Of a stretch of DNA of 64,000 nt, positions 15,589 through 34,171 are shown piece after piece. This DNA comes from Symmachiella macrocystis (GTDB lineage Bacteria > Planctomycetota > Planctomycetia > Planctomycetales > Planctomycetaceae): positions 806,001 to 870,000 of the forward strand of contig NZ_SJPP01000002.1 in NCBI RefSeq assembly GCF_007860075.1, written 5' to 3'. How positions within the stretch are numbered: the first letter of the stretch is position 1; the number at the start of each line of letters is the position of its first letter. Made by a program: the position numbers and the translations under genes. The notes under the pieces are model-generated. The model was not told where the DNA came from. It was given only the letters and a program-made list of their open reading frames with translations, and ran no database searches.

Positions 15589-15636
15589 TACCGCGTCCAT
15601 TGCTGGAATAGATGGCGGCAGGGCAGGGGGGGAGGG

Positions 15637-16584: not shown

Positions 16585-16645
16585 GATCATTCCCTGTTCT
16601 ATGATTCAATCTCAGCTAAAGGCCATTGGCATTTTCGTAGGTGGT

Positions 16646-17845
16646 TTAGATGCGGAGGAAGATTTTACGGCGGTACATCCACAGACAAATCAACCACATA
16701 ACCAACAGGATCGCGGTATGCTCGACCAGCGATGCGTATTGTTCGCCGAAGATGTTGAATATCTCTTGGCCGAGGTGTGTTTGGTAGGTCTCACGAATCC
16801 AACCTTTGAACAACCAAGTCATAATATAAATGGCGATGGAATTCATGCCGACAACCACCGCCGGCCACGCCCAAAACTGGATGCCTGCCAGGTCGATGAT
16901 GCCGTAGAACGCCGCCAGGATCAATAAGCAAATCCCGCTGCTATAGATCGTCCAACTCGGCGTCCAAATCCGCTTCACGATGGGGCAGATGTCGAAGTCA
17001 TCCAACGCATAACCGGCGGCCATGGCCACAGCCCCGGTGCCGATGAGGATCAAGAACTTGCGTCCGCCCCCGCGCGGTCCGCGGAGCAGTTCTCCCGCCA
17101 TCAATCCAAAGATCATCGTGGCTAAAGAGGGAATAAAACTGAGCGTGTGATACCCACCACCATTGTTTTGAAACGCGGTACTGCGTGGAAAGAGATTCAA
17201 AAACCAAACGTCAAACGCATGTGCCGCGTTCGTGTTTTTATTCCAATGTGCGGCGAACCCTGAGAGGTTGTACTGCCAATCGGGATCCACACCGGCGGAT
17301 GCGTAGTCAAAATCCGTACCGGGTAACGGCCAGACGGCAAACAGTGTCCAATAACCAATGAGCACCAACATGGCAGCGGTGAACTGAACTTTGGCGGAGC
17401 GGCCCCAGAGCAGAAACAAAAACACGTACCCCAGCCCGATCTGTGAAACGACATCTTCGAACGTCCAATAGGTTTCGGGCTTATGGTTCGAGCGGAGAAA
17501 CACGCCCAGCAGCGTTAAAGTGATGCCGCGAAACAACGCATGGCGAAACATCTGGCCGTGAGAATCGCCACGGCGTTGCCGACTGGCGTACGAATAAGCC
17601 ATCGAGACGCCGACCATGAACATGAACGAGGGTTGAATCAAATCCCAAGCGACGCAGCCCACCCAGGGAAGGTGCTCCATCTGCCGAGCAATTTCCTGCC
17701 ACATTGAACTGTCGGGATGATGTGTGGCAACCTCGGCCAATCCCAATCCGCCCGAAGCCATCGCCAACATCGTGAAACCGCGATAGGCATCTAAAGAGAC
17801 CAAACGCGGCGCGGGTGTCAGCGAGGCGGCTGGCGTCGTGGTCAT
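16646..17845 (-). CDS. DUF5009 / HGSNAT-like (NagX) membrane acyltransferase
   Basis: The product is a polytopic membrane protein with about ten hydrophobic segments. It starts with the signature LVSLDAYRGFTMLAM, the first helix of the heparan-alpha-glucosaminide N-acetyltransferase/NagX family, followed by an Asp in CVAWDLIQPSFMFMVG. Relatives transfer acetyl groups across a membrane to terminal glucosamine residues of polysaccharides. That fits an organism with many polysaccharide-active genes, but the substrate here is not shown. I start at ATG 17845 (MTTTPAAS) because the 37 preceding residues are not family-like. It lies 61 bases before the hydroxyacid dehydrogenase on the same strand. 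Confidence 0.85.
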   Translation of the reverse strand: MTTTPAASLTPAPRLVSLDAYRGFTMLAMASGGLGLAEVATHHPDSSMWQEIARQMEHLPWVGCVAWDLIQPSFMFMVGVSMAYSYASRQRRGDSHGQMFRHALFRGITLTLLGVFLRSNHKPETYWTFEDVVSQIGLGYVFLFLLWGRSAKVQFTAAMLVLIGYWTLFAVWPLPGTDFDYASAGVDPDWQYNLSGFAAHWNKNTNAAHAFDVWFLNLFPRSTAFQNNGGGYHTLSFIPSLATMIFGLMAGELLRGPRGGGRKFLILIGTGAVAMAAGYALDDFDICPIVKRIWTPSWTIYSSGICLLILAAFYGIIDLAGIQFWAWPAVVVGMNSIAIYIMTWLFKGWIRETYQTHLGQEIFNIFGEQYASLVEHTAILLVMWLICLWMYRRKIFLRI

Positions 17846-18014
17846 GTGAAGATCGGTCGTCCTTGTTGAAGGGAAATCAGGCACATCCGCCGCTCGGGCT
17901 CGTGCATCGTCACATAGAAGTATTAGGATGCCATTGGCAAAGTCAGTGTCACCCAAATCCCAAAAACAAACCGTGACAAACCGCTAAGATTTCACCGGCT
18001 GGTTAGAGGGAGGA

Positions 18015-19379
18015 TCAGTCTTTCTTCGCCTCGCGTTTGGCGCGGACTGCCTTGCCAACCGCTTTATCAAGCGGACGCAGGCCTTCGTCGGGATTGATGT
18101 CGTAAAACCCAATACTGTAGTGCGCCACTTTGCCATCAGCTCCGATGACAACCCACAGTGGAAGTTTCGCGCCCACGCGTCGTGGATCACCGAATTTTGC
18201 AACCAGTTCCCCGGCGTCGATCGCCAATGGATAACTGAGATTCATGAAGGACTTGAATTTTCGCGTACTCTGCAATGCGGCACCGCGGGTGTTGGCATCA
18301 GAAAACAGGCTATTCACAGCCACGCCGTAGACTTGAACGCCGAGTTTTTTATACCGGGCGAATGAATAGTCGAGGTAGGGGGCTTGGCCGTACGGTTCGA
18401 CGAGCGGATTGTATTTGTAGTCCCAAAAATGCAGGACGACAACATTGCCTCTCATCGCTGCGGCATCAATCGCTTCGCCGCGCAGTGGTTGCAGAGAAAA
18501 TCCAGGAGCTGGTTTGCCCACATAATTTGCCGAGAGTTTCTCGACATCATCATATCGTCGCATCTGACGTTTGAGATCGCGACGAATGGAGGCGGCCAAC
18601 CGGGCATAGGGGGTGTCCTCTGCTTCTTGCTGCAATTGCTCGGCGATCAATTCGGTGACCTTGAGTTGATCGGAGGTCAATTCGGCATTCATTTCGTTTT
18701 CCGGACGTTTGAGGTCCGCTTGCAACTTAGCCAGCGTGCTGATCGGCTTTTGCAATTTGTCATGATCCGCTTTTTCAATCGGCTTGTGTGATTGCAGCTC
18801 AAAAGAAAGAGAGAAGGGGACCCCTTTTCCACGAGTCAAATCGCGACGGGCACTGATGATCAGCCCGGTTTGTTTTTCCACGGCAAGCTCTTCTCGAAGG
18901 CCAAAGTTCGTGACTGATTCCACGCGCCAGCAGTCCCAATCTTGGACCTTGGCTGAGCCGACGACCGAATACTTGGAATTGCCAACGGTCCAGTTGGCGT
19001 CTTCGGCGAGTTTGGCGTGATGTTCAAACAGTGGACGCCGAACGCGAATCGAAGTCGGTTCGCCTTCATGCGTATAGAGCAAACGAATTTGAGCCGGATT
19101 GGTGGGCCGCAGCGCGGCATCGAGATCAATTTGTCCGTATTGTTCGGGCCAAGCCCAGGAACCGCCACCGCTTTCATCAACAAGAAACGCTAAACGCTGC
19201 CCATCTCCTGCGGCCTTGCTCACGAGGCAGTAGAGATTGAACCGTTTGACGGTGTCGCCGTTGGATTCTCGTCCCGTTTCGATCAAAGCTCCGCGATAGC
19301 GTAGTTCGACGGCATTAGAATCGGCCAAGGGGGACGAAAGGACAGACAGGACGACGAGGTGGGACAACAAAGCGGTCAT
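18015..19379 (-). CDS. Exported thioredoxin-fold (AhpC/TSA-type) protein lacking the CxxC motif
   Basis: A signal peptide (MTALLSHLVVLSVLSS, cleavage after DSNA) precedes a ~250-residue N-terminal beta-rich domain. The C-terminal ~170 residues form a TlpA/AhpC-type thioredoxin fold (YVGKPAPGFSLQPL, then VVVLHFW). Where TlpA has W-C-x-x-C this protein has WDYKYNP, so no redox-active cysteine pair is present; the rest of the fold, including the PLWVVIGADGKV cis-Pro strand, is intact. It may serve as a scaffold or binding domain. The start at ATG 19379 is set by AGGGAGG at 19388-19394; the longer frame from 19409 would include that site. Confidence 0.8.
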   Translation of the reverse strand: MTALLSHLVVLSVLSSPLADSNAVELRYRGALIETGRESNGDTVKRFNLYCLVSKAAGDGQRLAFLVDESGGGSWAWPEQYGQIDLDAALRPTNPAQIRLLYTHEGEPTSIRVRRPLFEHHAKLAEDANWTVGNSKYSVVGSAKVQDWDCWRVESVTNFGLREELAVEKQTGLIISARRDLTRGKGVPFSLSFELQSHKPIEKADHDKLQKPISTLAKLQADLKRPENEMNAELTSDQLKVTELIAEQLQQEAEDTPYARLAASIRRDLKRQMRRYDDVEKLSANYVGKPAPGFSLQPLRGEAIDAAAMRGNVVVLHFWDYKYNPLVEPYGQAPYLDYSFARYKKLGVQVYGVAVNSLFSDANTRGAALQSTRKFKSFMNLSYPLAIDAGELVAKFGDPRRVGAKLPLWVVIGADGKVAHYSIGFYDINPDEGLRPLDKAVGKAVRAKREAKKD

Positions 19380-19732
19380 TTCGCGCGCCTCCCTAGGCGA
19401 ATTCATCAATTACAGAGGTCATTCGTGGGACAACTCCAGCTGATGCGGGTTTGTCCGAATTGCACGAAACCCATTCAGGATAGCACAATAGGAGTAGATT
19501 TCGCCATCCTGCAATAGGGGCCAGCGGCAAGAATTTTTGACGCCACGCGCGACCGGCAAAGTGCGGTGGGGCCCCCTGCCCAGAAGCACCAGCCACCTTG
19601 ACAAATGTTGACACACCCTCACTGGCGCCCGTATCCTATGAATAGACGGCTTAAGGAGTTAATCAGCCGGGCTCCGCGTCATGCGTGGAGTGACTGAAAG
19701 CGCATGCGCAGTAAACCAGGAGTCAAATAATC

Positions 19733-20875
19733 GTGAATTCGAGAAGCATGGCGTTCAAAATCATCACGATATCGGCCACGATTTCCTGTTTGGGACTTGT
19801 TGCTAGTGTTGCACAAGACCGGAATTCGAATCGACGGGCTGCGAATGAGGCGGACGCCGAGGAAGCCCCGGCGGCGTTGGTGATCAAACGCCGGGCTGTG
19901 GTGCTCGAAGATCCACGCACCTATCAAATTCCGATGCGTCTGGAACCGGTACGTTCCATCGCTGTCATCGCGCCGGTGGATGGCATCGTACAAAGTGTCC
20001 ACGTCAAACCGGGAGATCTGCTCCCGTCGCAGGGTGACGTGGTTCGCATGGATGATACGCGTACGGAACTATTAACACGCAAAGCCAAAGCAGAGGTGAC
20101 AGCGCGGCAAATTGAAAGAAAAATTGCCGGGGCAAAAAGCGGTGCGGCCGATGAAGTCGCCTTGGCCGACGCGAATTTGGAGGCAGCCAAGGCGGCGTAT
20201 GAATTGGCGGAACTCGACCAGAACCAAATGATTGTTCGCGGCGCATTTGCGGGAACGATTCTTCAAGTGCACGTTGTCCCGGGCCAATTCGTGAGAGCAG
20301 GGGAGGCTGTGGCGGAATTGGCCGATTTAAGGAGTCTGGTAGCGGAGATTCCAGCGGGTCGAGCACAATATAAAGCGGGCGACAAAATTTCGGTCACGGT
20401 GGAAAACGAAGCGGTATCGGCTGTCGTGGAATCAATCTCCGCACCGCCACCGCGATTCGAGTCATTACGCCCACTGATCGATTCGCTCTCGATGGCGAAG
20501 ATTCAAATTCAAAACAGCGAAGGAAATTATCACCCCGGCCAAGCGGTCTATGTCGATCTGATTCCGACCGAACCGGTGGCCGTGGTACCAGCCCTGGCGA
20601 TATCCAATTCTGACGACGGGCAACGCAAGGTACAGGTTGTTCGAGAGTATGTCGTTCGCGACATCAAGATATCTCCGTTAGCCCAAATCAATTCGGAGCG
20701 GATCTATGTATCGGGAGAATTTTCGCCAAACGACGAAGTGATCGTCAATGCGTCGATGGAATTGACCGATGGAACAAAATTGCGTCCGTGGGTTCAGGAA
20801 TTCGACGCACCTGAAGAAACCGAGAAGAGTAAAAAGCAGTCGCTGCCGCGCAAGACAAAATCTAGAGGTTTGTAG
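19733..20875 (+). CDS. HlyD/RND-type periplasmic adaptor (membrane fusion) protein
   Basis: A GTG start is supported by AGGAG at 19718-19722. A signal peptide (ISATISCLGLVASVA) comes first, then a biotinyl-lipoyl-like domain begins at APVDGIVQSVHVKPGDLL (~80-97). A helical hairpin follows (TARQIERKIAGAKSG...EAAKAAYELAELDQ), then the second lipoyl half (VRGAFAGTILQVHVVPGQFV) and beta-barrel segments. Adaptors of this kind bridge inner-membrane exporters and outer-membrane channels. No pump gene is adjacent, so its partner is unknown. The tail is strongly basic (KSKKQSLPRKTKSRGL), unusual for the family. Confidence 0.85.
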   Translation: MNSRSMAFKIITISATISCLGLVASVAQDRNSNRRAANEADAEEAPAALVIKRRAVVLEDPRTYQIPMRLEPVRSIAVIAPVDGIVQSVHVKPGDLLPSQGDVVRMDDTRTELLTRKAKAEVTARQIERKIAGAKSGAADEVALADANLEAAKAAYELAELDQNQMIVRGAFAGTILQVHVVPGQFVRAGEAVAELADLRSLVAEIPAGRAQYKAGDKISVTVENEAVSAVVESISAPPPRFESLRPLIDSLSMAKIQIQNSEGNYHPGQAVYVDLIPTEPVAVVPALAISNSDDGQRKVQVVREYVVRDIKISPLAQINSERIYVSGEFSPNDEVIVNASMELTDGTKLRPWVQEFDAPEETEKSKKQSLPRKTKSRGL

Positions 20876-20975
20876 TGGCGTCACCACGCGTGCTGGTCAT
20901 GTGGCCCACTGCGATGTCCGTACAAAACGCTGCGGGATAAGCGCTCAAGCAACTTGACTCGACATCACAGTTCAA

Positions 20976-21000
20976 AATTGCCCAAGCAGTTGGGGCAATT
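20976..21000. other. Stem-loop between adaptor and kinase genes
   Basis: AATTGCCCAA (20976-20985) can pair with TTGGGGCAATT (20990-21000), giving a ten-pair stem with one bulged G and a short loop. It lies about 100 bases after the adaptor stop codon and 110 before the kinase start. It could end transcription or protect an mRNA end, but no T-run follows. Confidence 0.3.
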
Positions 21001-21108
21001 GCGGACTCCAGGTTGTATTCCGCACAACGACGCAGGCCGTAGGGCAGGTCGGAATGCGTCGCTCAGTTTATACGCCTGAAGTAGGCACTAAGGAAGGAAG
21101 AGTATCCC

Positions 21109-22632
21109 GTGTCAGAAAATGAATCATCTATCGACAACTACAAATTGTCCAACTGTCTGTCGCAAGGAAGGCACAGCCAAGTCTGGGAGGCAAACGATTC
21201 CGGGAGTGGGCGGACCGTTGCACTGAAAGTGTTGCTCCCCGAGGCATTCGCAGACAAGGAACAAAAGCAGATATTGAAGTTGGAAGCAAAGGTGGGCAAG
21301 TCACTTGAGCATCCCAATATTATTCGGGTCTACGAATGCATCGTGAGCCGCAACCACGCTTATATCGCCATGGAGTTATTCCGCGCCCCTAATGCCAAGG
21401 TCCAATTGGTCAGCGACAAAGCATCCATACAGCGGCGAGCGCACAAACTGATCGAACAGACAGCGATGGCGCTGGCCCATATGCACGAACGAGGTTGGAT
21501 CCATAAGGACGTCAAACCAGAGAATATTCTCATTAACAAATCCTCCGAAGTGCGGCTGATTGATTTTTCGCTGTCAGGCAAGCCGGCCGGTTCGTTGGGC
21601 AAAATGGTCAACCGCAAAAAGAAGGGGTTCGTGCAAGGTACGCGAACTTACATGGCTCCTGAACAAATTCGCAATCAGCCGTTAACACATCTCGTCGATA
21701 TGTACGGCTTCGGAATTACGGTTTATGAAATCCTGGCAGGGCGGCCCCCGTTTCGTTCGCCGCACCCTGACAATCTATTGATGGACCATCTCAAGACCAC
21801 TCCCGCCCCTCCTTCAGAATTCAACGACAACATCACGGCAGAAATGGACCAGATCGTGTTGAAGATGCTCGCCAAATCGCCTAAGAATCGTCAAAGCGGC
21901 ATCGATGAATTTTTGTCCGAATTCCGGAACGTCCGAATCTTCAAAGAAGCACTCCCCGAGCAGGCGCAGCGGACGGAACAAGAGATCAACGAGGATAAGC
22001 TCAAAGATCAAGATGCGGGAATAGAGTCACGCATCGACAGTCGGTTGGACGCGATGCGAACCGAGGCACTCAAAAATAATCCTGGTGGTGTCAAAGCACC
22101 AGAGAAGACCAAATCGAAAACCGTACTCAAAACCGAGCCAATTGAAAAGCCGAAAGCTCCTGAGCCTCCAGCACAGCAGCAACCGCAACAACCTCCCCAA
22201 CAGCCATCAGTTCAGCCGCCGCAACCTTTTCCGCAACCAGGCATGCCGCTGCAGGCGATGACCCCCGAACAAATGGCCATGCATCAGCAAATGCTCCAAC
22301 AGCAACAGGCGTATTACCAGCAGATGATGCACCAGCAATCCATGCAGAATCAAATGTATCCGCAACCAGGGATGCAGCCGCCCCCAGGGATGCAGCAACC
22401 GCAAATGCCGGCGCCACCGCTGCAGCAGCAACCTCCGCAACCAGCTGCGTCCCAACCACCTCAGCAACCCTCGGCGCCGGCTCCAGTTCAAGAGCAACCG
22501 CCCCAACAGAAACCAGCCCAAAAGAAACCGGCCCCTTCCAAAGAGCAAAAACCTCCGAAAAAAGAAACTGAGGGAACGATCATGAGCATCGACGATATGG
22601 AAGATATTTTCAAAACGCTTCCCGATGTCTAA
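21109..22632 (+). CDS. Serine/threonine protein kinase with P/Q/M-rich C-terminal tail
   Basis: Residues ~11-270 are a eukaryotic-like kinase domain. Lys40 in VALKVL, the catalytic loop HKDVKPEN (Asp134), and the APE-equivalent MAPEQ are present. The glycine-rich loop is degenerate (LSQGRHSQVW instead of GxGxxG), and DFG reads DFS (Asp152 kept). Residues ~330-480 are low complexity, rich in Pro, Gln and Met, and prion-like in composition. A compact tail (IMSIDDMEDIFKTLPDV) closes the protein and looks conserved enough to be a docking peptide. No transmembrane helix is seen, so it is likely cytoplasmic. The GTG start is supported by an AAGGAAGG site. Substrates are unknown. Confidence 0.92.
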   Translation: MSENESSIDNYKLSNCLSQGRHSQVWEANDSGSGRTVALKVLLPEAFADKEQKQILKLEAKVGKSLEHPNIIRVYECIVSRNHAYIAMELFRAPNAKVQLVSDKASIQRRAHKLIEQTAMALAHMHERGWIHKDVKPENILINKSSEVRLIDFSLSGKPAGSLGKMVNRKKKGFVQGTRTYMAPEQIRNQPLTHLVDMYGFGITVYEILAGRPPFRSPHPDNLLMDHLKTTPAPPSEFNDNITAEMDQIVLKMLAKSPKNRQSGIDEFLSEFRNVRIFKEALPEQAQRTEQEINEDKLKDQDAGIESRIDSRLDAMRTEALKNNPGGVKAPEKTKSKTVLKTEPIEKPKAPEPPAQQQPQQPPQQPSVQPPQPFPQPGMPLQAMTPEQMAMHQQMLQQQQAYYQQMMHQQSMQNQMYPQPGMQPPPGMQQPQMPAPPLQQQPPQPAASQPPQQPSAPAPVQEQPPQQKPAQKKPAPSKEQKPPKKETEGTIMSIDDMEDIFKTLPDV

Positions 22633-22806
22633 GCGGCCAGCGTCATCGGAGGACTGGGGGCGTTTGTTGCCCGCACCCAGCGAATCGAAAGTCGTGCGAA
22701 CTGAAAATTGCGGCTTGCTTGACCTGGGGCGATGAAGTCGCGACCATCTGAGGCGTACCGCCCTATTCGGCATGTCACAATTTCCCCCCGCGAACAAGAA
22801 TCAGTG

Positions 22807-23841
22807 ATGGCGACATATCAACCGCTCCCTTTCGAGCAGCCGATTCAAGAACTCGAAAAGCAACTGGCCGATCTCAATGCGCAAGAGAATTCGACGCCCG
22901 AACACGCCGAACAGATCCGCCAATTGAAGTTGGAAATCACGCGATTGACGCGCGAAATTTTCGACAATCTTAGTGCCTGGGAAACGGTGAAGGTGGCCCG
23001 GCAAACCGGTCGGCCGCAAACGCCCGATTACATCGAACTGGTGTTCGACGAGTTTGTCGAGTTGCACGGCGATCGAGCTTTTGGGGACGACCGCGCCATT
23101 CTCACCGGACTGGCCAAACTCAACGGCCGCAAGATCATGCTGATCGGTCAGCAAAAAGGCCGGACGGTCCAGGAGCGAAGCGAATGCCTCTATGGCTGCG
23201 CTCATCCCGAAGGATATCGCAAGGCGCTGTCACGGATGCAAATGGCGGCCAAGTATGGTCTACCGATCGTCTGCTTCATCGACACACCCGGCGCCTACCC
23301 TGGGATCGGCGCCGAAGAACGTGGCCAGGCCTACACGATCGCTTACAACCTCCGCGAGATGTCCCGGATTTCGACACCCATCACGGCGGTCGTGCTGGGG
23401 GAAGGGGGGTCCGGAGGAGCTTTGGGGATCGGCATCGCCGACCACGTGGCTGTCTTGCAGCACGCCTACTATTCGGTGATCAGCCCCGAAGGCTGCGCGG
23501 GCATATTGTGGAAACATGTGGAACATGCCAGCAAGGCGGCCGAGGCGCTCAAGTTTACCTCAGCTGACCTTTTGAGAATGGGGATTGTCGACGAAGTGAT
23601 TCCCGAGCCGCTGGGAGGCGCGCACCGCAATCACCGGCGGATGGCGATGGCTCTTAAAGCCAGTCTGACGGAAAGTCTCAAAGCGCTGGATGGACTCTCG
23701 AGCGAGGAACTGCTTGATCGGCGTTACGAGAAATTCCGCCGCATCGGAGTGTTTGAAGAAACCACTGTCACGGAAACGATCGCGGCCACCGACAACGTCC
23801 CCGACGCTGATGCTGAGATTGCTCCCGATGCCAACAGCTAA
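22807..23841 (+). CDS. accA: Acetyl-CoA carboxylase carboxyltransferase subunit alpha
   Basis: AccA forms the carboxyltransferase with AccD and transfers CO2 from biotin to acetyl-CoA, giving malonyl-CoA for fatty acid synthesis. The family start FEQPIQELEKQL is present, followed by the crotonase-fold core: DYIELVFDEFVELHGDR, GRTVQERSECLYG and FIDTPGAYPGIGAEERGQ, and the oxyanion-forming GEGGSGGALGIG. I use ATG 22807 (MATYQPLPF), because the 25 residues upstream in the longer frame are not family-like. The last ~30 residues are an acidic tail beyond the usual length. The gene ends 124 bases before the candidate dif site; accD is not in this window. Confidence 0.96.
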   Translation: MATYQPLPFEQPIQELEKQLADLNAQENSTPEHAEQIRQLKLEITRLTREIFDNLSAWETVKVARQTGRPQTPDYIELVFDEFVELHGDRAFGDDRAILTGLAKLNGRKIMLIGQQKGRTVQERSECLYGCAHPEGYRKALSRMQMAAKYGLPIVCFIDTPGAYPGIGAEERGQAYTIAYNLREMSRISTPITAVVLGEGGSGGALGIGIADHVAVLQHAYYSVISPEGCAGILWKHVEHASKAAEALKFTSADLLRMGIVDEVIPEPLGGAHRNHRRMAMALKASLTESLKALDGLSSEELLDRRYEKFRRIGVFEETTVTETIAATDNVPDADAEIAPDANS

Positions 23842-23964: not shown

Positions 23965-23992
23965 ACGTCCGATAATGTCCGTTATGTTTCAT
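23965..23992. other. dif: Candidate chromosome dimer resolution site (dif)
   Basis: The 28-base site has the XerCD layout of two 11-base arms around a 6-base centre: left arm ACGTCCGATAA, centre TGTCCG, right arm TTATGTTTCAT. The right arm matches the E. coli XerD arm (TTATGTTAAAT) at 9 of 11 positions. The inner ATAA/TTAT inverted core and the TGT that opens the centre are also conserved. It is intergenic, between accA and dtd. Octamers matching the FtsK-orienting sequence change orientation around it. Whether Xer recombinases act here is inferred. Confidence 0.6.
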
Positions 23993-24030: not shown

Positions 24031-24125
24031 CGAGAATCATCGTGCATTCGCCGACCCAATGCGGACGTTGGTTTTGGGGGCGAACTCCCCTGCCCAAAGT
24101 GGTGGCCACATTCCGAATTCACACA

Positions 24126-24575
24126 TCAGAATTCCTTGCGGCTGTCGACCAGGATCGTCACCGGCCCCTCGTTGACCAACTCGACTGACATCTGTTCTTG
24201 AAACCGACCGGTCGCCACTTCGATTCCGTGACCGCGAACCTCAGCGACAAAACTTTCGTACAGCGGATTCGCAATTTCGGGACAGGCTGCTGCAACGAAA
24301 CTGGGGCGACGACCTTTTCGGCAATCACCCAAAAGTGTGAATTGACTGACGACCAACATCCCTCCGCCGACATCGGCAAGCGAGAGATTCATTTTGCCGG
24401 CCTCATCTTCAAATATCCGCAGCCCGGCAATCTTGGCTGCCAGATAAATGACGTCATCCTGACTGTCATCGGCGGTGACGCCCAGCAGCACCAAATAGCC
24501 ACTGTCGATCTCTCCCGTAATTTCACCCGCCACGGAAACCTGGGCACGGGAGACTCTTTGCACAACTGCTCTCAA
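24126..24575 (-). CDS. dtd: D-aminoacyl-tRNA deacylase
   Basis: Dtd hydrolyses D-amino acids (and glycine) mischarged onto tRNAs, using RNA-assisted chemistry across a dimer interface. The full 149-residue length is typical. The start [15 protein letters not shown] and the active-site motifs SQFTLLGD (~78-85) and NEGPVT (~133-138, the NxGPxT consensus) are intact. It is the last gene of a minus-strand run with the metallophosphoesterase-like gene, only 20 bases downstream of it, so it is probably co-transcribed with the three-gene cassette. A functional link with that cassette is not obvious. Confidence 0.96.
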
Positions 24576-24595
24576 TTGATCGGTCCTTTGCTATT

Positions 24596-25387
24596 TTAAA
24601 ACGGCCCACGGCGACGTTCTTTGCTGGGCAACACTTCCAAACATGTCGTCCACCAACCGGTTTGGATCGTCGCCACAAATTCCTCCGGCAAACGTTCATC
24701 ACGCATCTCTTGCGCCAGACGCAGGTGGACATATTCCAGCGGCACGAATTGTATGTCAATCCCCCCTGCAACGGCATCACCGCCGGTACGAATTTGCGCA
24801 TACCAAACAACGGTTTGGCCATCGTTTTCGGGCCGGCCCAGGACGCCCACATTGACGAACCTTCGCCCGCCGGTCAATTCGCGTTGCCAATGAATTCCGG
24901 TATGCGTTGCCAGAATCAGATCGGCCTGATAATCATCGGCGAGCTTATCCAGAAATTGCGTACTGGTTGTCGACTCCCAGAGAAACTCGTTCGTCTTGCG
25001 CGGACTGCCGTGGCACATCAGAATTCTTAGGCCATCCACTTCGATACGATGCTCGCTCGGCAAGTCGCGCAACCAACGACGGTTCTTAGCTGCGGTATGG
25101 GCGTACGTGTAATCGTAACTCAACTTGGCAAAATAATTGTCGCGGGGATCGGTGTAGCCGCATTGGCAATCCTGCAGGTCGTTGCCGATGCTGTTGTCGT
25201 AATTGCCTTGAATGCAAATCACCCTATTGTCGCGCAGCGGCGCGAACACCCGATCGGGGTACGGCCCAAACGCCCCCATGTCGCCCAAGCAATACAGCGA
25301 TTCAGCGCCGGCGCGATGTGCATCCTCTATCGCCGCTTGCAGCGCGAGATAGTTATTGTAGATGCCACCAAAGACCGCAAGATGCAC
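24596..25387 (-). CDS. Calcineurin-like phosphoesterase-fold protein with altered metal motif I
   Basis: The product follows the YfcE-type metallophosphoesterase order: LAVFGGIYNNYLALQAAI, CLGDMGAFGPYPD, IQGNYDNSIG, LMCHGSP and LATHTGIHWQ. The GD, GN-x-D and late His motifs are kept. The first motif, normally SDIHGN with metal-binding Asp and His, reads FGGIYNN, so both ligands are missing. It may bind one metal or have a new activity. I prefer GTG 25387, since GGGGAG lies 7 bases upstream and translation then starts 26 bases after the radical SAM stop; the longest frame (25516) would overlap that gene by 104 bases. An unusual DCQCGY segment sits in the middle. The cassette context suggests a joint pathway with the two genes upstream. 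Confidence 0.78.
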   Translation of the reverse strand: MHLAVFGGIYNNYLALQAAIEDAHRAGAESLYCLGDMGAFGPYPDRVFAPLRDNRVICIQGNYDNSIGNDLQDCQCGYTDPRDNYFAKLSYDYTYAHTAAKNRRWLRDLPSEHRIEVDGLRILMCHGSPRKTNEFLWESTTSTQFLDKLADDYQADLILATHTGIHWQRELTGGRRFVNVGVLGRPENDGQTVVWYAQIRTGGDAVAGGIDIQFVPLEYVHLRLAQEMRDERLPEEFVATIQTGWWTTCLEVLPSKERRRGPF

Positions 25388-25412
25388 CGCGCGACTCCCC
25401 GACTCATTCGTT

Positions 25413-26330
25413 TCAGTTTTTGCTATCCGCGGCGCGCTGTTGTTCGACAACCTGCGACGAAGGATTTGTGCAGATCGCGCCGTACTGATAACAGGTGTAG
25501 CATGCGCCGTGGGCAAGTGGGAAGGGCGATGTCGATTCCGCTAACGTCTCCCCCAATTGCGCGGCTGGAGAGTCGAGCAGGATCGGACAAACGCAGACCC
25601 CCCTATCGGTGATCACACGACTGTGTGCGCAGATCAATTGGCCCACATCGTAATCGCTCAGCATCTCGTGCGTGACGACATCCTCTGCATCATAACCGTG
25701 AGTCCGTTGCACCTCTGCCCCGATTTGTAATCGCGGCAAGATCTTTAACCGTGGCCGCGTATAACCTAGCTCATGCAGCGCTGCGCGAAAGGCGCTGATG
25801 ATCCCAGGATCGTCCGCTTCGTCCCAGGTGCGCGTCATCGTGATGATGGGTAGAAAGCCATGCTCAACGAGAAGTCGAACACCCTGCATCGCGCGTTTGA
25901 ATGTCCCTTCGCCGCGAATCGGATCGTTGATCGCAGCGGTGGGGCCGTCGATGGAGACACGGATTTCTAAACTGTAGACCGCCCCCTCTTCGGCGCGGCG
26001 AAGTTCACGCAACCACTCTGGTTTGAGAACCGTCGCATTCGTTAGCACGGTGGCGGGACCGTAAGCTAACGTCGCCTTGAGCATGGGGATCAATTCTTTA
26101 TTGAGAAATGGTTCCCCCCCGGTGAAGTAATACTCTTTGACACCAAAGGCGACCGATTCCTCAAGACGCCGCTGCACTTCGTCAAGCGATAGATAGCCGA
26201 AGCTGTCATTGTGCGGACTACAACTGATGAAGCAGTGTGTGCACTGCAGATTGCACAATGTGCCGGAGACTTGAAACCAAAGTTCATCCAACGCTTGAAG
26301 TTCGACGGACGGAATGTTTGCGATGCTCAT
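25413..26330 (-). CDS. Radical SAM protein with C-terminal cysteine cluster
   Basis: The canonical radical SAM [4Fe-4S] motif CNLQCTHC occupies residues 26-33 (Cys26, Cys30, Cys33), followed by the SAM-contacting FTGGEPF (~63-69) and IRVSIDGP. The C-terminal region holds six more cysteines (CVCPILL, GACYTC, GAIC) that probably ligate an auxiliary cluster, as in SPASM or twitch enzymes. Those relatives often modify peptides or small metabolites, including RiPP precursors; no precursor peptide is evident here. The ATG overlaps the stop of the flavoprotein gene by four bases (26327-26330), so translation is coupled. The substrate is unknown. Confidence 0.88.
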   Translation of the reverse strand: MSIANIPSVELQALDELWFQVSGTLCNLQCTHCFISCSPHNDSFGYLSLDEVQRRLEESVAFGVKEYYFTGGEPFLNKELIPMLKATLAYGPATVLTNATVLKPEWLRELRRAEEGAVYSLEIRVSIDGPTAAINDPIRGEGTFKRAMQGVRLLVEHGFLPIITMTRTWDEADDPGIISAFRAALHELGYTRPRLKILPRLQIGAEVQRTHGYDAEDVVTHEMLSDYDVGQLICAHSRVITDRGVCVCPILLDSPAAQLGETLAESTSPFPLAHGACYTCYQYGAICTNPSSQVVEQQRAADSKN

Positions 26331-27610
26331 TGTTGTAGCTGCGCCCCCTGCTCACCCTTTCGCGACATGGGTGTTTCCGATTCCGCGGCCAAGAAATCAT
26401 ACACATCGACAATCTGTTCCAAACCCACACGAATCAAAAACCGCGAATCGCGTCCATAACTTTTTGCCCCCAAGATAAAAAATCCCGGCTCGGGATTGCG
26501 CAATGTTTCAACTCCATTGCTGGACTGATTCAGACAATCGGTTGACGTCTCCCCCATCAACGCGGCCGCTAACTTGATCGGACCTGAGGTGGCATAACAT
26601 TCGTGCATTTGTAGTTCGCTGTACAACGACCGGTCGGGCTGATATCCGACATTGGCAACGATGCGGTCGGCAGAGAGCATTTCATGCTCCTCGCGATGAC
26701 GAACAATCACGCGAAAGCCCCCCTGCCCATCTATCAATTGAATTCCCTGAATGATGCGTTGCGGCATCAATGTGATGGGCGAGTCCGCTGACATTGCCAA
26801 CCGATTGGCCTTCGCCGTCAATGTACCTCGCTCGGGTAAGGGATCCTCATCAATAACCGCCAGCGGCGGTGTGCGCTCGGAGCGGGTGATCCAAATCGCC
26901 CGTGTTTTTTTATCCGATTCGGCAAGTCGTGCCAATCCTGTAATCGCTGTCGCTGCCGAATATCCACTCCCGATGACCAATGTTGTTTGCCCCGCGTAAA
27001 ATTCGCGGCGGCTGCCCAATATGTCCGGGACGCCGTATTCGATCGCGCCGACCGCTGACGTCTCCCCCACTGCCGGCAGCCCCCCTGCTCCGAGCCAGTT
27101 GTGATGCGGATAGACGCCCGAACAATCGAGCACATAATCAGCGGACACATCACGTTCTATTCCGCTTCGATCCCGCAAAAGAAGTCGGAACAGATCATTG
27201 CCGCGCGCAGGGTTTTCGATCAGGTCCGCTTTCCAAGAGTTCATGCGACTGATGCCGACGACCGTCGTCTGTTCGTGCAAACTTTCAGACAGTATGGGGA
27301 GTCGACTCAACGGGAGCAGGTAACGGTCGGCATATTCGCGGCCGGTAAGAAATTGATCGTCACCGGGCAGTCGCACGCCTGGTTGTTGCTCGTCGATCGC
27401 GCGTTGCGCCCAATTGGAGGCGTTCATGCGAAACGGGCTGAACAGGCGCACATGTCCCCAGTCCCGCATATTCGCGGCCAGCGGACCTTTTTCGTAGAGA
27501 TCAACATCAAAGCCCGCCAAGCGTCCGTAAAGAGCGGCCTCCAACCCAATTGGCCCGCCCCCAACGATGGCAATGCGTTTTGTCGCTCTGGATGTATGTG
27601 TGTGATTCAA
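26327..27610 (-). CDS. FAD/NAD(P)-binding oxidoreductase
   Basis: A Rossmann FAD-binding motif (IAIVGGGPIGLEAALYG, ~13-29) opens the protein, and a second nucleotide-binding motif (LVIGSGYSAATAI, ~205-217) points to NAD(P)H binding. The layout is that of flavin monooxygenase/thioredoxin-reductase-like enzymes, also related to ornithine N-monooxygenases. The early segment MRDWGHVRLFSPFRMN resembles a substrate-side loop seen in such monooxygenase-like proteins. It is the first gene of the cassette that continues with the radical SAM gene (4-base overlap), the phosphoesterase-like gene and dtd. The reaction cannot be told from sequence. Confidence 0.85.
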   Translation of the reverse strand: MNHTHTSRATKRIAIVGGGPIGLEAALYGRLAGFDVDLYEKGPLAANMRDWGHVRLFSPFRMNASNWAQRAIDEQQPGVRLPGDDQFLTGREYADRYLLPLSRLPILSESLHEQTTVVGISRMNSWKADLIENPARGNDLFRLLLRDRSGIERDVSADYVLDCSGVYPHHNWLGAGGLPAVGETSAVGAIEYGVPDILGSRREFYAGQTTLVIGSGYSAATAITGLARLAESDKKTRAIWITRSERTPPLAVIDEDPLPERGTLTAKANRLAMSADSPITLMPQRIIQGIQLIDGQGGFRVIVRHREEHEMLSADRIVANVGYQPDRSLYSELQMHECYATSGPIKLAAALMGETSTDCLNQSSNGVETLRNPEPGFFILGAKSYGRDSRFLIRVGLEQIVDVYDFLAAESETPMSRKGEQGAQLQQ

Positions 27611-27781
27611 GTAATCGCTCAGTCTGAGGAAGTATTAGGTTGATCGTAGTCTAGCGGCCCACCCGCTGGGAACTGTGAATCGCCATACAACCTAGAAGTA
27701 GTATTGTGGAATGACGATTCGCGGTACCGCGTTATAATGCCCCCCTGCCCTCCAACTGCTCAACCGATACGGAGCAATTTC

Positions 27782-28273
27782 ATGCCTGTGATTCGACCGG
27801 CACAACACAGCGATCTAAATGCGATCAACGACATCTATAACGCCGCGATTCGCGACTCGACGGCGACGTTCGACACCGCCGAGAAAACACTCGAGGAACG
27901 ACAACAGTGGTTCAACGACCATAGTCCGCGCTATTCCATTCTCGTTGCCGAAGTCGACAACCAAGTCGTGGGTTGGGCATCCCTGTCCCGCTGGAATCAA
28001 AAACCGGCGTACGACATCAGTGCGGAGACGACATTCTATGTGGCCGTCGAACATCGCGGACAAGGGATTGGTCGCGCGCTGAAAGTAGCAATCATCGAAG
28101 AAGCCCGCCACCACGACTTCCATTCGCTAATCGCCCTCGTGACAGCCGAAAGCGAAGCGAGCCTACATTTGAACAAAATGTTCGGATTTGTCGAAGTCGG
28201 CGTGCTGAAGGAGATCGGCCGTAAGTTTGATCGATTGTTGGATGTGGTGATACTGCAGAAGGTGTTGAACTGA
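27782..28273 (+). CDS. GNAT family N-acetyltransferase (phosphinothricin acetyltransferase-like)
   Basis: The 163-residue protein has the PAT/MnaT order: VIRPAQHSDLNAINDIYNAA, a central VVGWASLSRW strand, the acetyl-CoA loop HRGQGIGRAL (R-G-x-G-I/L-G), and a LNKMFGFVEVGVLKEIGRKF end. Relatives acetylate amino groups of methionine derivatives or of the herbicide phosphinothricin. ATG 27782 is chosen because GGAG lies ~8 bases upstream; the longer frame from 27704 contains a likely -10 box (TATAAT, 27733-27738) and is not family-like. It is divergent from the flavoprotein operon. Confidence 0.9.
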   Translation: MPVIRPAQHSDLNAINDIYNAAIRDSTATFDTAEKTLEERQQWFNDHSPRYSILVAEVDNQVVGWASLSRWNQKPAYDISAETTFYVAVEHRGQGIGRALKVAIIEEARHHDFHSLIALVTAESEASLHLNKMFGFVEVGVLKEIGRKFDRLLDVVILQKVLN

Positions 28274-28315
28274 TCTTCTAAAAAAGTGTCACTGAATTTT
28301 TCACTCCGAAAAACA

Positions 28316-28397
28316 CCTCACGCAAAGGCGCAAAGATCGCAAAGCAAAGTAACTCACCATGCCCGGCTCTTAGCGGCCTTTGCGACTTTGCGTGAGG
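28316..28397. repeat. 20-base inverted repeat of the CTTTGCG dispersed family
   Basis: The left arm starting CCTCACGCAAAGGCGC (28316-28335) and the right arm ending TTTGCGTGAGG (28378-28397) are inverted copies of each other over 20 bases with one mismatch, around a spacer of about 42 bases. The element lies in the 200-base gap between convergent genes (GNAT and pcrA). It could fold into a strong hairpin and stop transcription from both sides. A related single arm occurs at 8966-8993, so this is likely a mobile or amplified intergenic repeat. Confidence 0.6.
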
Positions 28398-28476
28398 TTT
28401 CCTGCATGGAATGCACGTCTCTTGTTTGATCTGTGCTTTACTCGTGTTTCATCTGTGGCTAAAAAAACACTTCCAC

Positions 28477-30840
28477 TTAACGCTGCCCCACCGGTTGCAG
28501 CGGGCTTTTGGCGATGTCGAAGTTACGGCACTCCCCTGCTGCGAATTCGACAGTGACGGTTTTGCGGCGGCCGAAGCCGTCGATGTTGCGGACGGTGCCT
28601 ACGCCGTACTGCGGATGGCGGACGTCCATGCCGATGCTGAAACCGCGCGGGATTTCTGTCGGGGTGTTGGTGCCATTGAGCAAGTCGGCGGCGGTCATCA
28701 TTTGCGGTCGGGGCGCATCTTCTTCAGGGCGCTGCTTGATGATCGGTTCGAAGTCGTCCAGTGAATGGTCGTGGGCATAGTCATCATCCCACGCGATATA
28801 TTCACTGTCGGTTTCCACGACGGTGGCGGCGAGGTCCATCTCGAACAAAAACGGGCTGGGGATCGTCGACAGGCGCTGGCCGCGAATATCCCGCACTGCT
28901 GTTTGCGTGAGCATCAACTGCTCTTCCGCCCGCGTCATGCCCACAAATAACAACCGCCGCTCCTCTTCCAGTTCATGCGGGTCGTCACTGTTGATCGCCC
29001 TTTCGTGCGGCAATAGGTTTTGTTCGACACCGACGACGAAGACCACCGGATATTCCAATCCCTTGGCGGCGTGCAAGGTCATCAACGTCACGCTTCCCGC
29101 ATGTTCATCGAGACTGTCGACATCGTTGATCAGCGAGCTTTCTTCCAGGAATCCTTCCAACGTGGCGTCGTCGCCGTGAGCTGCATCGTATTGCCGGGCT
29201 GCGGAGATCAACTCATCCACGTTGGCGGCGCGCTCCATGTTTTGTTCCGTGGGGTCATCCAACCAGGAATGATCATAGCCAGTTTGTGTGACGACCTGCG
29301 TAATCAACTCGGCGACTCCTTGCGCCGTGCGTTGCGACAGTTGGGAGATCAATTCGTAAAACCCATGCAGTGCTTTAATGGCGCGCTTCGTTAGCTTGGG
29401 GACCTCCTCTGCTCGCGCCGCTGCTTCCAACAAACCGCCCCCCTGCCCCGTCGCCCAAGCGGTTAAACGCGTGAGTGATGTTTTGCCGATACCCCGCGCG
29501 GGGACGTTGACGACTCGTTCAAACGCGGTGCGGTCGGCCGGGTTAGCGATCAGCCGTAGGTAGGCGACGATGTCTTTGACTTCCGCCCGGTCATAAAACC
29601 CGACCCCGGCGGCGACTTGATACGGAATGTGAAAGCGGGCCAACGCTCGTTCGATGCTCCGCGAAAGCGCATTGACGCGATAAAAGATTGCGAAGTCCGA
29701 CCATGCTCTGCCTGCTTGATCAACGAGGTCTTGAATCCGCAGCGCGATCCCTTCCGCCTCGGCGGCGCCGTCGGTGAACGTCAATAACTCGACCGGCGGC
29801 CCTTCATCATTCTCCGTCAGCAGCGCTTTAGCTTTGCGGTTGAAATTGTGACCGATCAACAAATCCGCTTGCCGCAAGATGGCCTTGGTACTGCGGAAAT
29901 TATGTTCCAAGCGGACGACTTTTGCGTCGGGATAATCTTGCTCGAAACGCAAGATGTTGCCGATCTCCGCTCCCCGCCAAGCATAGATCGATTGATCGGG
30001 GTCGCCGGTGGCGCACAGATTCGGAAAATCCTGTGACAACGCGCGGACGATGCGGTATTGCGGCAGGTTGGTGTCCTGATATTCGTCGACGAGAACGTAT
30101 TGAAACCGCTCGTCCAGCTGGCTCCTTAAAGCGGGGTTTTCTTCCAGCAAGCGTGCCACGTGCAGCAACAGGTCGTCGAAGTCGACCGCATTGCTATCTT
30201 GCAAAGCGCGTTGATAGGCGGGGTACGCCTCTGTCACAACCCGCAACATTGTATCGCCGATGCCTCCCCCGGGGTTGAGAGCGAATTCCTCGGGGCCGAC
30301 GAGGCGATTTTTGCTGGAGCTGATCCGTGCCGCTACTTTGGCCGGCGGAAAATGTTTGACGTCGTGCCCCAACTCGGTGAGCACCGATTTAAGCAACCTC
30401 CGTTGGTCGGAGGTATCAAGAATCGTGTAGTTGGGTTGCAGACCGACGCCGCGTGCGTGCTTTCGCAGCAATTGTGCGCAGAACCGGTGAAACGTGCTGA
30501 CCCAGATTTTGGCATCCGGCAACAGAGCGTCAACACGCTCGCCCATCTCACGGGCCGCTTTGTTCGTGAAGGTGATCGCCAGAATGTTGTAGGGGTGCAC
30601 GCCGCTTTGCACCAACTGGGCAATGCGGTGCGTGATCACCCGCGTCTTGCCCGAGCCGGGTCCGGCAAGCACGAGTAACGGTCCCTCCTTGTGGTCGACC
30701 GCCTGTTGTTGGCTGGTTGTGAGATTGTTCAAAGTCGCTGCTTGTAAAAATCGGAACTCGAGGCAAGGGCCGCGCTCCGTCCACGGCCCGTGCGAGCAAT
30801 CATAAAGAATCCGCTCGCGTTTTGACCAGCCAATTGTCAT
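28477..30840 (-). CDS. pcrA: UvrD/PcrA-type superfamily 1A DNA helicase
   Basis: SF1A helicase motifs appear in order: Q-motif NNLTTSQQQAV, Walker A AGPGSGKT, motif Ia ITFTNKAAREM, motif II VDEYQDTN, motif III GDPDQSIYAWRGA, motif IV LEHNFRST, motif V TLMTLHAAKGLE and motif VI RLLFVGMTRAEE. The C-terminal VRHPQYGVGTV segment matches the Tudor-like tail of PcrA/UvrD that contacts RNA polymerase. It unwinds DNA 3' to 5' in excision repair, replication restart and transcription-coupled repair. The start is uncertain: ATG 30876 and 30840 both add ~35-47 residues before the usual N-terminus, and a TTG near the Q-motif is also possible. Confidence 0.95.
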   Translation of the reverse strand: MTIGWSKRERILYDCSHGPWTERGPCLEFRFLQAATLNNLTTSQQQAVDHKEGPLLVLAGPGSGKTRVITHRIAQLVQSGVHPYNILAITFTNKAAREMGERVDALLPDAKIWVSTFHRFCAQLLRKHARGVGLQPNYTILDTSDQRRLLKSVLTELGHDVKHFPPAKVAARISSSKNRLVGPEEFALNPGGGIGDTMLRVVTEAYPAYQRALQDSNAVDFDDLLLHVARLLEENPALRSQLDERFQYVLVDEYQDTNLPQYRIVRALSQDFPNLCATGDPDQSIYAWRGAEIGNILRFEQDYPDAKVVRLEHNFRSTKAILRQADLLIGHNFNRKAKALLTENDEGPPVELLTFTDGAAEAEGIALRIQDLVDQAGRAWSDFAIFYRVNALSRSIERALARFHIPYQVAAGVGFYDRAEVKDIVAYLRLIANPADRTAFERVVNVPARGIGKTSLTRLTAWATGQGGGLLEAAARAEEVPKLTKRAIKALHGFYELISQLSQRTAQGVAELITQVVTQTGYDHSWLDDPTEQNMERAANVDELISAARQYDAAHGDDATLEGFLEESSLINDVDSLDEHAGSVTLMTLHAAKGLEYPVVFVVGVEQNLLPHERAINSDDPHELEEERRLLFVGMTRAEEQLMLTQTAVRDIRGQRLSTIPSPFLFEMDLAATVVETDSEYIAWDDDYAHDHSLDDFEPIIKQRPEEDAPRPQMMTAADLLNGTNTPTEIPRGFSIGMDVRHPQYGVGTVRNIDGFGRRKTVTVEFAAGECRNFDIAKSPLQPVGQR

Positions 30841-31013
30841 TCCGACGCGTAAGGAACACTCCCCTGCCCCGTTCACCGGCGTCGAAAACTATTTCAGAGG
30901 GACAATCGGCCAGAATCGAAAGTTTTGCCATTTTTTGCGCCTTTGATGGAAATTTGCCTGTAACAAACGCCGCTGATTTACGCTTCGGTTATTATGTGAC
31001 CGTTACCAAAACA

Positions 31014-31032
31014 CCATAGCTGCGCGCTATGG
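31014..31032. other. Hairpin in the leader of the NSS transporter gene
   Basis: CCATAGC (31014-31020) and GCTATGG (31026-31032) form a perfect seven-pair stem with a five-base loop, 34 bases before the transporter ATG and just upstream of its strong GGAGGGGGGAG ribosome-binding region. It could affect mRNA stability or mark the end of a leader. No riboswitch class is recognised. Confidence 0.35.
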
Positions 31033-31065
31033 GCTAGGATAATCATTCGGAGGGGGGGAGCGACA

Positions 31066-32460
31066 ATGAGTGGCCAACCGAATCAAAACGGCGCAGAACT
31101 CGCCAATGCAAGCGTTCAAGGTAACCCGGATCGTGGCGGGTTTGCGACGAACTTTGGCTTTATTATGGCAGCTGTCGGGAGCGCCGTGGGGTTGGGGAAC
31201 ATATGGAAATTCCCTTACATCACCGGCGAATACGGTGGCGGTGCGTTTGTGTTGGTCTATTTGATCTGCATCGCCCTGGTCGGCTTGCCGTTGATGTATG
31301 CGGAGTTGATCATCGGGCGTCGCGGCGGCAGTGATATTCTGGGAGCGATGCGAAATCTCGCCGCTGAGGGGAGCGTGCTGGGGCGGATACTCGCCTATCT
31401 GACCGGCGGCATGGCGGTAGCCTCTGGGTTTTTGATTTTATCGTTCTATTCTGTCGTCGCTGGATGGGCGCTGCATTTTCTGGCAGTCTCTTTGGGTGCC
31501 ATGCCCGATGCCCAATTGGGCGCCGAGGGAACGTTTGCTGAGGTGGCGGGTAGTGCAAACCTTTCTTCGCTTTGGCATACGATCTTCATGGCATTGACGA
31601 TCACCGTAGTGGTGGGTGGGATTCATGGCGGGATTGAGAAACTGTGCAAAATCCTGATGCCGATCCTATTTTTAATGCTCGTTGCCCTGCTGTTCTACGT
31701 CGGATACACCGGTGGCTTGGAACAATCGTTGACCTTCTTGTTCAAACCCGACTTTCACAAATTGAGCGCTGCGGCCGTATTAGAGGCATTGGGGCATGCG
31801 TTCTTTACGTTGTCATTGGGCATGGGGGCGATCGTGACGTACGGGTCGTACCTCAAGAGTGAGCGGCACGTGATTCGTGACGGCATGGCCATTGCGTTTC
31901 TGGATACGCTCATCGCTTTGATGGCCGGAGCGGTGATTTTTGCTGTCGTGTTTCACGCTGGCCTGGAAGCTGAGGGAGGTCCGGGGTTGCTGTTCAAGAC
32001 GCTACCGGCCCTGTTCATCAAAATGCCATACGGCGCCGCCCTTTCCAGCTTCTTTTTCCTGCTGGTGGTGTTCGCTGCCTGGTCCTCCGCCGTTTCATTG
32101 TTAGAAGTCGTGGTTGCGTACTTCGTCGACGAATGGAAGATGAAACGATCCATTGCCACTTGCCTGTTCGGGGGGTTGGTCTGGGGATTGGGCATTGCTT
32201 CGGCCTGTGATGGGAACGTCTTGGATTTCCTCGACAACTTAACAACTCGCTACATGCTGCCGCTGGGCGGATTAGCCATCGCAATTTTCGCCGGCTGGTT
32301 TGTCAGCTACGAAGATCGCAACAGTGGCTTCGCCCCGTTTGGCGAATTGGGAAAGAAGTTGCAAGCGGTCTGGTTGTTCACGATTCGTTTCGTGTCACCG
32401 GTGTTGATCGTGATTGTGATTCTCTCCAAGACAGGTGCGTTGGATTCGTTCATCAAGTAA
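31066..32460 (+). CDS. Sodium-dependent transporter of the NSS/SNF family
   Basis: About twelve hydrophobic segments are present. The first carries the hallmark GFIMAAVGSAVGLGNIWKFP, whose unwound glycine stretch binds Na+ and the substrate amine in LeuT. GEYGGGAFVLVYLI and the AELIIGRRGG loop follow as in other members. The family cotransports Na+ with amino acids or related amines into the cytoplasm. The C-terminus is near the family norm. A strong purine-rich ribosome-binding site (31051-31061) precedes the ATG, suggesting good expression. No adjacent catabolic gene hints at the substrate. Confidence 0.93.
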   Translation: MSGQPNQNGAELANASVQGNPDRGGFATNFGFIMAAVGSAVGLGNIWKFPYITGEYGGGAFVLVYLICIALVGLPLMYAELIIGRRGGSDILGAMRNLAAEGSVLGRILAYLTGGMAVASGFLILSFYSVVAGWALHFLAVSLGAMPDAQLGAEGTFAEVAGSANLSSLWHTIFMALTITVVVGGIHGGIEKLCKILMPILFLMLVALLFYVGYTGGLEQSLTFLFKPDFHKLSAAAVLEALGHAFFTLSLGMGAIVTYGSYLKSERHVIRDGMAIAFLDTLIALMAGAVIFAVVFHAGLEAEGGPGLLFKTLPALFIKMPYGAALSSFFFLLVVFAAWSSAVSLLEVVVAYFVDEWKMKRSIATCLFGGLVWGLGIASACDGNVLDFLDNLTTRYMLPLGGLAIAIFAGWFVSYEDRNSGFAPFGELGKKLQAVWLFTIRFVSPVLIVIVILSKTGALDSFIK

Positions 32461-32625
32461 CCGGCGGGTATTCACCAGCGGCGCGTTCGCGTCTGTGGAT
32501 CGGCAAGTGTTTGCACACCCGGGCCCCATTGGGGCGCGCGGTGTGCACTTCTTTGCACGTTTCACACGTGGCCAACGGACGAACCAATTTCGCACGCGAT
32601 ACTGGAAGAGCTTTTCGTCCTCCGT

Positions 32626-32655
32626 TTGCCTGTTTGCCGACGATGTCCCTATAAT
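32626..32655 (+). promoter_or_regulatory. Promoter of the Gfo/Idh/MocA gene
   Basis: TTGCCT (32626-32631) and a perfect TATAAT (32650-32655) are 18 bases apart and end 56 bases before the ATG at 32712. The gene also has an AGGAGGAG ribosome-binding site. Position and hexamers support the call. Confidence 0.5.
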
Positions 32656-32711
32656 GGCCCTCTGCCCAGACGGCTCCAAGTGCATCCATGGCTTACCAGG
32701 AGGAGACGAAT

Positions 32712-34061: not shown

Positions 34062-34171
34062 TTGGGCGTGCGCCCCCGCTCCTGGCTTTACGGGATGATG
34101 ATTTCACGACGGCGAAACTCAAGTGATTTATAGTTCAAATTATTCAGTAGCCCCTAGACGGAAAGCAATTC

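Follow-up and report, generated by a model that had tools for sequence, protein, structure and literature searches.

A 28-bp sequence in the gap between accA and dtd is almost certainly the chromosomal dif site of this planctomycete, a reading reached without binding or recombination data. The window in which it lies is a stretch of 64,000 nucleotides (C2:806001-870000) from an assembly of 7,574,949 bases in 6 contigs that is 96.58% complete. A preliminary description had proposed a dif-like XerCD site here; its 28-mer is present exactly at 23965-23992 and is intergenic as described, with the identities of both neighbouring genes backed by Pfam. The elements of the site and its neighbours are as follows.

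23965-23992, + strand: putative dif, 28 bp arranged as 11-6-11, sequence ACGTCCGATAATGTCCGTTATGTTTCAT
23965..23975, + strand: XerC-binding arm ACGTCCGATAA, assigned by inference from likeness to E. coli dif, without binding data
23976..23981, + strand: central region TGTCCG, 6 bp, presumed place of strand exchange
23982..23992, + strand: XerD-binding arm TTATGTTTCAT, inner TTATGTT conserved and outer bases variable, without binding data; the presumed XerD target is written as TTATGTTNNAT, also without binding data
22732..23841, + strand: accA open reading frame, upstream neighbour, Pfam-confirmed
24126..24575, - strand: dtd, downstream neighbour, convergent with accA, Pfam-confirmed

In the portion available, the survey of Kono et al. 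2011 predicted dif in 641 organisms from 16 phyla and reported that prediction failed in Cyanobacteria and Planctomycetes (PMC3025954), which bears out the earlier remark that planctomycete dif sites are little described. No description of a planctomycete dif was found in the open PubMed Central literature, as far as its texts were available. The window site is very probably a genuine dif in a phylum where that survey reported failure. It is the same kind of site as those predicted in 2011, here found as a family of planctomycete sites and tested against KOPS, and it fills the gap that the survey left.

Like E. coli dif, the site consists of 28 bp in an 11-6-11 arrangement with an intact inner ATAA/TTAT pair, and its XerD arm is identical to the E. 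coli arm at 9 of 11 positions. This agreement had been claimed beforehand, as had the 3-base spacing of ATAATGT and TTATGTT and a centre (TGTCCG) that starts with TGT. Unlike E. coli dif, the XerC arm matches at only 5 of 11 positions and the centre at 3 of 6, and centres in the family are mostly TGTCCG or TGTCTG.

The 28-mer was found once in the assembly, and its 21-base core has a single occurrence there with up to 3 mismatches. The whole-genome search that had been called for returned no equal or better dif match in the 96.58%-complete sequence. The earlier argument that such a match would hardly arise by chance in 64 kb held only in part: the site is the sole perfect match to ATAAN6TTATGTTNNAT in the window, but at 3 mismatches this pattern occurs 7 times where 6.7 are expected, which is the chance level. 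Across the whole assembly with up to 1 mismatch, the pattern finds the site and two 1-mismatch matches, whereas the reversed control finds 5. Sequence likeness was rejected as proof on its own, since matches were fewer than in the control (3 vs 5), and within a single genome the likeness to dif is evidence of modest weight. The case is therefore carried by conservation in relatives and by KOPS polarity.

Directly after the 28-mer there is an imperfect inverted repeat. It was considered as a terminator and rejected, because no site resembling an intrinsic terminator was found at 23820-24200. A promoter-like match (TTAACA-17-TATAAT, 11 of 12 positions, + strand, 23992-24020) lies directly against the XerD arm and is directed into dtd in antisense, with its -10 box inside the repeat.

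Conservation of the 28-mer among planctomycetes

Relatives were searched with the 20-letter pattern ACGTCCGATAATGNNNNTTATGTT at up to 2 mismatches, with the reversed pattern as control. The core is present in 147 of 170 family genomes (control, 3 of 170), including 124 of the 130 good genomes and 55 of 58 genera. At this threshold no match was found in 23 of the 170, 6 of them among the 130 good genomes. There is one copy in 144 of the 147 matching genomes and two in G026, G076, and G079; with the single site in the genome studied here (G000), the test for one site per chromosome is met. In a draw from the whole phylum, 225 of 393 genomes contain the core and 5 match the control. By hand count, these are 46/46 genomes of the family, 48/53 from other families of the class, and 131/294 from other classes. 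The core was not found at 2 mismatches in the other 168 of the 393, and in family and phylum genomes without a match the sites have either diverged or do not exist. Among named contigs, at least 119 stretches match the pattern, at least 114 of them with planctomycete titles (counted by hand). Conservation, one of the checks named at the outset, thus holds across the family and beyond it. Genomes G260 and G288, from outside the class, have ACGTCCGATAATGTATATTATGTT, within which ATAATGTATATTATGTT is the E. coli dif core.

Column information was computed for 33 non-redundant family rows, after 10 of 43 rows with near-identical flanks had been removed. The rows were retrieved by the motif itself, with the XerC arm included in the search pattern, a procedure that forces high values in 20 of the 28 columns. 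In these motif-retrieved rows the 28 columns average 1.67 bits, against 0.12 and 0.10 in the flanks. The fair part of this comparison is the drop into the flanks, the four centre columns that the search pattern leaves open (1.1-1.9 bits), and the single bases just outside the 28-mer, an A before and a T after (1.9 bits on each side). Within the XerD arm, TTATGTT, which belongs to the search pattern, reaches 1.6-1.9 bits and the last four bases 0.4-1.2. The XerC arm, likewise part of the pattern, is nearly invariant in the 33 rows and is retained in other families and classes when up to 2 mismatches are tolerated. The structural test for dif is met, with the inner ATAA/TTAT intact and the edges of the conserved block within one base of the 28-mer.

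KOPS polarity, GC skew, and the replication terminus

FtsK is guided by the KOPS octamer GGGNAGGG, which switches strand at dif in E. coli and elsewhere, according to the available parts of two sources (PMC13342612, PMC2680272); the first of these, dealing with chromosomes and large replicons, describes the switch at dif as a "structural hallmark." KOPS provides a test that is independent of the dif motif, and it was applied to 464 contiguous kb around the site. On the left, 33 octamers are on the + strand and 3 on the - strand, and on the right 7 are on the + strand and 37 on the - strand, so that the octamers point at the site from both sides. The best change point consists of three tied intervals, one of which spans -566 to +123 bp relative to the site, and 0 of 10,000 permutations of the octamer order gave a change as strong as that observed. 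Octamers inside the window are located at the following positions.

47, 15621, 15629, 16476, 23399, + strand: GGGNAGGG left of the site pointing toward dif, n=5, within 47..23406
19574, - strand: GGGNAGGG left of the site pointing away, n=1
24088, 26721, 27743, 29441, 30862, - strand: KOPS right of the site pointing toward dif, first 5 of 10 within 24088..56180
33374, 37579, 45727, 52315, 56173, - strand: the last 5 of these 10
25519, + strand: KOPS right of the site pointing away, n=1

The same switch is present in G003 (35 toward and 4 away on the left, 3/26 on the right by strand) and in G384, a member of another family (14/5 left, 2/11 right). In G001, which was sampled sparsely, the right-side signal is clear and the left-side excess is weak (13 vs 9). 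When all octamers were ranked in G000 and G003 together, with no motif picked in advance, GGGNAGGG came first of 50,464 classes, with 131 copies toward the site and 17 away; by single genome it ranks 2nd in G000 and 1st in G003. A further tally used 104 single-site loci among the matches listed, 99 of them with planctomycete titles. Set aside from it were 15 of the 119 listed contig loci, namely 6 loci with pairs of sites and 9 with multiple copies. At the 104 listed loci 344 octamers point toward the site and 43 away, and of the 96 listed loci with any KOPS, 91 are mostly toward and 2 mostly away. Of the 42,638 one-N octamer classes that point toward the site in excess, GGGNAGGG again ranks first. 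Rearrangements of the same letters are less polarised in both tests (42 arrangements in G000/G003, five controls in the multi-locus tally). The loci set apart have 8 toward and 2 away at pairs and 0 toward and 1 away at multi-copy loci.

The KOPS polarity inversion test for dif is met, and this polarity could hardly arise unless the 28-mer is the destination of FtsK. In the available text of PMC13342612 the octamer and its inversion at dif are the same as here, and the string 'planctomyc' occurs 0 times. Octamers close to the site were also considered as a mark of the XerD side and were rejected in this role, as there is no simple enrichment: at 0.5-2 kb from single sites, 31 point toward and 23 away on the XerD side, compared with 41 and 5 on the XerC side, so that polarity near the site is weak on the XerD side and away-pointing octamers are more frequent there than on the XerC side.

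The preliminary description had further expected the site to locate the replication terminus. This part is only loosely supported: the KOPS switch puts FtsK convergence at the site, but the GC skew turns only loosely near it. Cumulative skew over the 464 kb peaks 23.6 kb to the right of the site, and inside the window it peaks at 47,529. In G003 the turn is at -129 kb (400 kb fetched), in G001 it lies between samples 3.6% and 8.6% of the genome from the site, and in G006 between samples about 14% and about 19% away. Skew alone is too weak and noisy to locate the site. The contig start and dnaA were likewise rejected as origin markers, as the full dnaA lies between about 5% and 50% of the genome away from the site (partly computed by hand). 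Each of 25 genomes, mostly single-contig, has at least 2 DnaA matches, and many of the assemblies begin at the short one; usually one match covers most of the model and one lacks roughly its first 110-120 positions. Because of the double DnaA and the variable distance, neither marker was used.

The site of dif and the end point of replication differ in some bacteria, as indicated in the accessible parts of PMC6199493 and PMC13342612, and in Pseudomonas aeruginosa it is segregation, not replication, that is reported to end at dif (PMC6199493, in the part available). The 28-mer marks FtsK convergence; termination of replication there has not been shown. It is an exact landmark of this convergence in planctomycete genomes, and skew is weak in those sampled.

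Recombination machinery and competing explanations

As in the E. coli system, where KOPS GGGNAGGG also inverts at the site, the genome encodes XerC, XerD, and an FtsK with a gamma domain, so the machinery test is met. XerD scores 341.2 bits against a cut-off of 329.6 and XerC 343.9 against 335.15 (NCBI curated cut-offs). The one FtsK with a gamma domain in the genome is encoded within the window.

61196..63595, - strand: ftsK, 799 aa, with 4TM, alpha, FtsK/SpoIIIE motor, and gamma (residues 718-778) regions

This FtsK carries FtsK_gamma (PF09397) and PF17854, named FtsK_alpha in the Pfam copy used, and its gamma domain can be aligned with the FtsK gamma structures 2ve8, 2j5o, and 2j5p. A gamma domain is present in 5 of 5 genomes searched. 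Unlike the E. coli and Pseudomonas structures, which have IGYNRAAR, the gamma domain here (window 61199-61498) reads IGYGRGAR, in a region that contacts KOPS. Despite this change, the polarised octamer of the genome is still GGGNAGGG. The distance from ftsK to dif is about 37 kb here, 38 kb in G001, and 45 kb in G020; the two are far apart in G003 and G006.

A second difference from E. coli is that ftsZ was found in 0 of 5 genomes (this one and four relatives), while 13 of 14 control genomes were positive. With ftsZ undetected, the FtsK-XerCD-dif pathway seems to persist where division proceeds without a Z-ring. For the planctomycete Planctopirus limnophila, ftsK is reported to be the only essential gene of the division cluster, and a modified function of FtsK in FtsZ-less relatives is discussed (PMC12283558, in the portion available). 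The KOPS signal, being independent, indicates that the steering of FtsK to dif persists in bacteria without detected ftsZ, and a known site makes FtsK-XerCD dimer resolution without a Z-ring directly addressable by experiment.

The sequence of the site, its single occurrence, its conservation, the octamer switch, and the genes for XerC, XerD, and full-length FtsK are direct observations; protein binding, the order of cleavage, and dimer resolution are inferred by analogy with the E. coli pathway. On that analogy, a crossover between sister chromosomes would produce a dimer in which the site is present twice. FtsK, held in place where the cell divides, would load on GGGNAGGG octamers and be steered along both arms to the point of the strand switch, the 28-mer, where XerC would occupy ACGTCCGATAA and XerD TTATGTTTCAT. 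The gamma domain of FtsK would then activate XerD, and strand exchange in TGTCCG would convert the dimer into two monomers.

The frequent presence of accA beside the site raises the question of whether the 28-mer could be a regulatory or 3'-end element of that gene (a terminator, an RNA element, or an operator) that merely resembles dif. Among 42 distinct family genomes read as loci of about 3 kb, 37 have an accA match no more than 1.5 kb from the site (hand count), and the inverted repeat and promoter-like match that follow the site immediately could be taken in the same sense. However, accA has no match in the locus in the other 5 of the 42, nor in many loci of other families; dtd varies as a neighbour and comes within 1.5 kb in 10 of these 42 genomes (hand count). 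The flanks of the 28-mer are unconserved, the absence of an intrinsic-terminator-like site at 23820-24200 counts against a terminator, and an accA element offers no reason for a KOPS strand switch extending over hundreds of kilobases, which leaves this explanation barely credible. It is just as hard to credit that the 28-mer is the attachment site of a mobile element that uses Xer recombination (an IMEX, a pdif module, or a filamentous-phage attP) and not the dif of the host. Such elements do carry dif-like sites, as stated in the available parts of PMC5357621 and PMC4246890, and G076 and G079 have extra copies 8.7 and 14 kb from the main site. Against this stand the single copy, found both in this genome and in 144 of the 147 family genomes that match, and its position at the KOPS switch. 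The test for membership in a mobile element is not met, as there is no second copy in the assembly and the adjoining genes are accA and dtd; this concerns immediate neighbours only, the wider window not having been screened.

It is also conceivable, if very improbable, that the site is a genuine dif that marks FtsK convergence but now serves mainly segregation or decatenation and resolves dimers little or not at all. The undetected ftsZ and the discussion of a modified FtsK in FtsZ-less relatives (PMC12283558, as far as that source was available) could be cited for such a shift. XerC and XerD both exceed their curated cut-offs, however, and the conservation of the open centre columns is hard to explain without recombination.

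Gemmataceae-type pairs and other dif-like sites

Outside the window, two sites lie within 100 bp of each other in 6 of 171 fetched loci, and all 6 pairs are head to head (up to 4 mismatches). Of the 95 genomes in one family, f3, 45 match a first pair pattern, and the tail-to-tail order at similar spacing was found in 0 of the 95. A looser pattern applied to 397 genomes of the class gave 61 with pairs, 60 of the 95 in f3 and 1 of 302 elsewhere (G621; hand count); it found no such pair in 35 of the 95. This family is called Gemmataceae-type because the Gemmataceae-titled loci L135 and L152 share contig positions with matches in G550 and G527. Readable pair loci are L068, L087, L115, L135, L145, L152, and L391.

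In each pair the XerC arms face inward and the XerD arms outward. At the centre base next to the XerD arm the two partners differ in all 61 of 61 pairs, whereas 10.4 pairs with identical bases would be expected if partners were combined at random, taking one genome from each of 29 genera. The other centre positions are identical in 17 to 56 of the 61, and two pairs differ solely at this base. Centre-to-centre distances, in a searched range of 56-86 bp, fall at 56-57, 62-66, 73-77, and 84-86 bp, with a best period of 10.1 bp; at 10.5 bp, 0 of 20,000 uniform draws were as strong. The periodicity holds with one value per genus, uncorrected for relatedness between genera. Centres and lengths of the pairs were read by hand.

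KOPS are scarce near the seven readable loci, four of which have any: 14 point toward the pair and 3 away (p 0.013), too few to rely on. From these few converging octamers and the features of the pairs, the pair appears to be the dif locus of Gemmataceae-type bacteria, and apparently an undescribed variant of dif. No description of a paired dif or of a Gemmata dif was found in the open PubMed Central literature, within the texts available.

The helical-turn spacing suggests contact between the bound complexes or a partner common to both, the function being inferred. One possibility, which we advance only tentatively, is that the Gemmataceae locus is a two-faced device, with both sites on the same face of the helix, centres incompatible on the XerD side, and one site used per event. 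Whichever chromosome arm FtsK came along, it would encounter an XerD arm first, and partners with an incompatible base at the XerD cut could not recombine together, so that each would meet its own sister copy. As two exchanges would cancel, a given event would involve just one site of the pair. The lone dif in the window would then represent such a locus in its simple form. The pair would offer a natural test of how the side of FtsK approach and the identity of the centre control Xer recombination.

The nearest known arrangement is the attP1/attP2 pair of CTX-phi, two inverted Xer sites with 90 bp between them that are unfit for Xer integration because of a long centre or incompatible centre bases (PMC4246890, in the part available). 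Both are close inverted Xer sites with non-matching centres. In contrast to CTX-phi, the Gemmataceae-type pair comes from whole-genome assemblies, with 60 of 95 genomes having it once each, both of its sites have 6-bp centres, the distances follow helical steps, and the few KOPS converge on it.

Several dif-like copies occur in each of nine loci: L071, L074, L092, L097, L138, and L163 (one MAG, JAITIZ), and L110, L128, and L133. Each copy adjoins a shared stretch of about 60 bases, maybe from related genes, and the nine loci together contain only one KOPS octamer; they are possibly cassettes with Xer sites. Second dif-like sites with 2 mismatches on the same strand lie at G076:C1:2840806 (8.7 kb from the main site) and G079:C1:3575899 (14 kb), and an element integrated by Xer recombination is possible in both. 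G275, G292, and G046 have three dif-like copies each, on different contigs or far apart, with differing centres.
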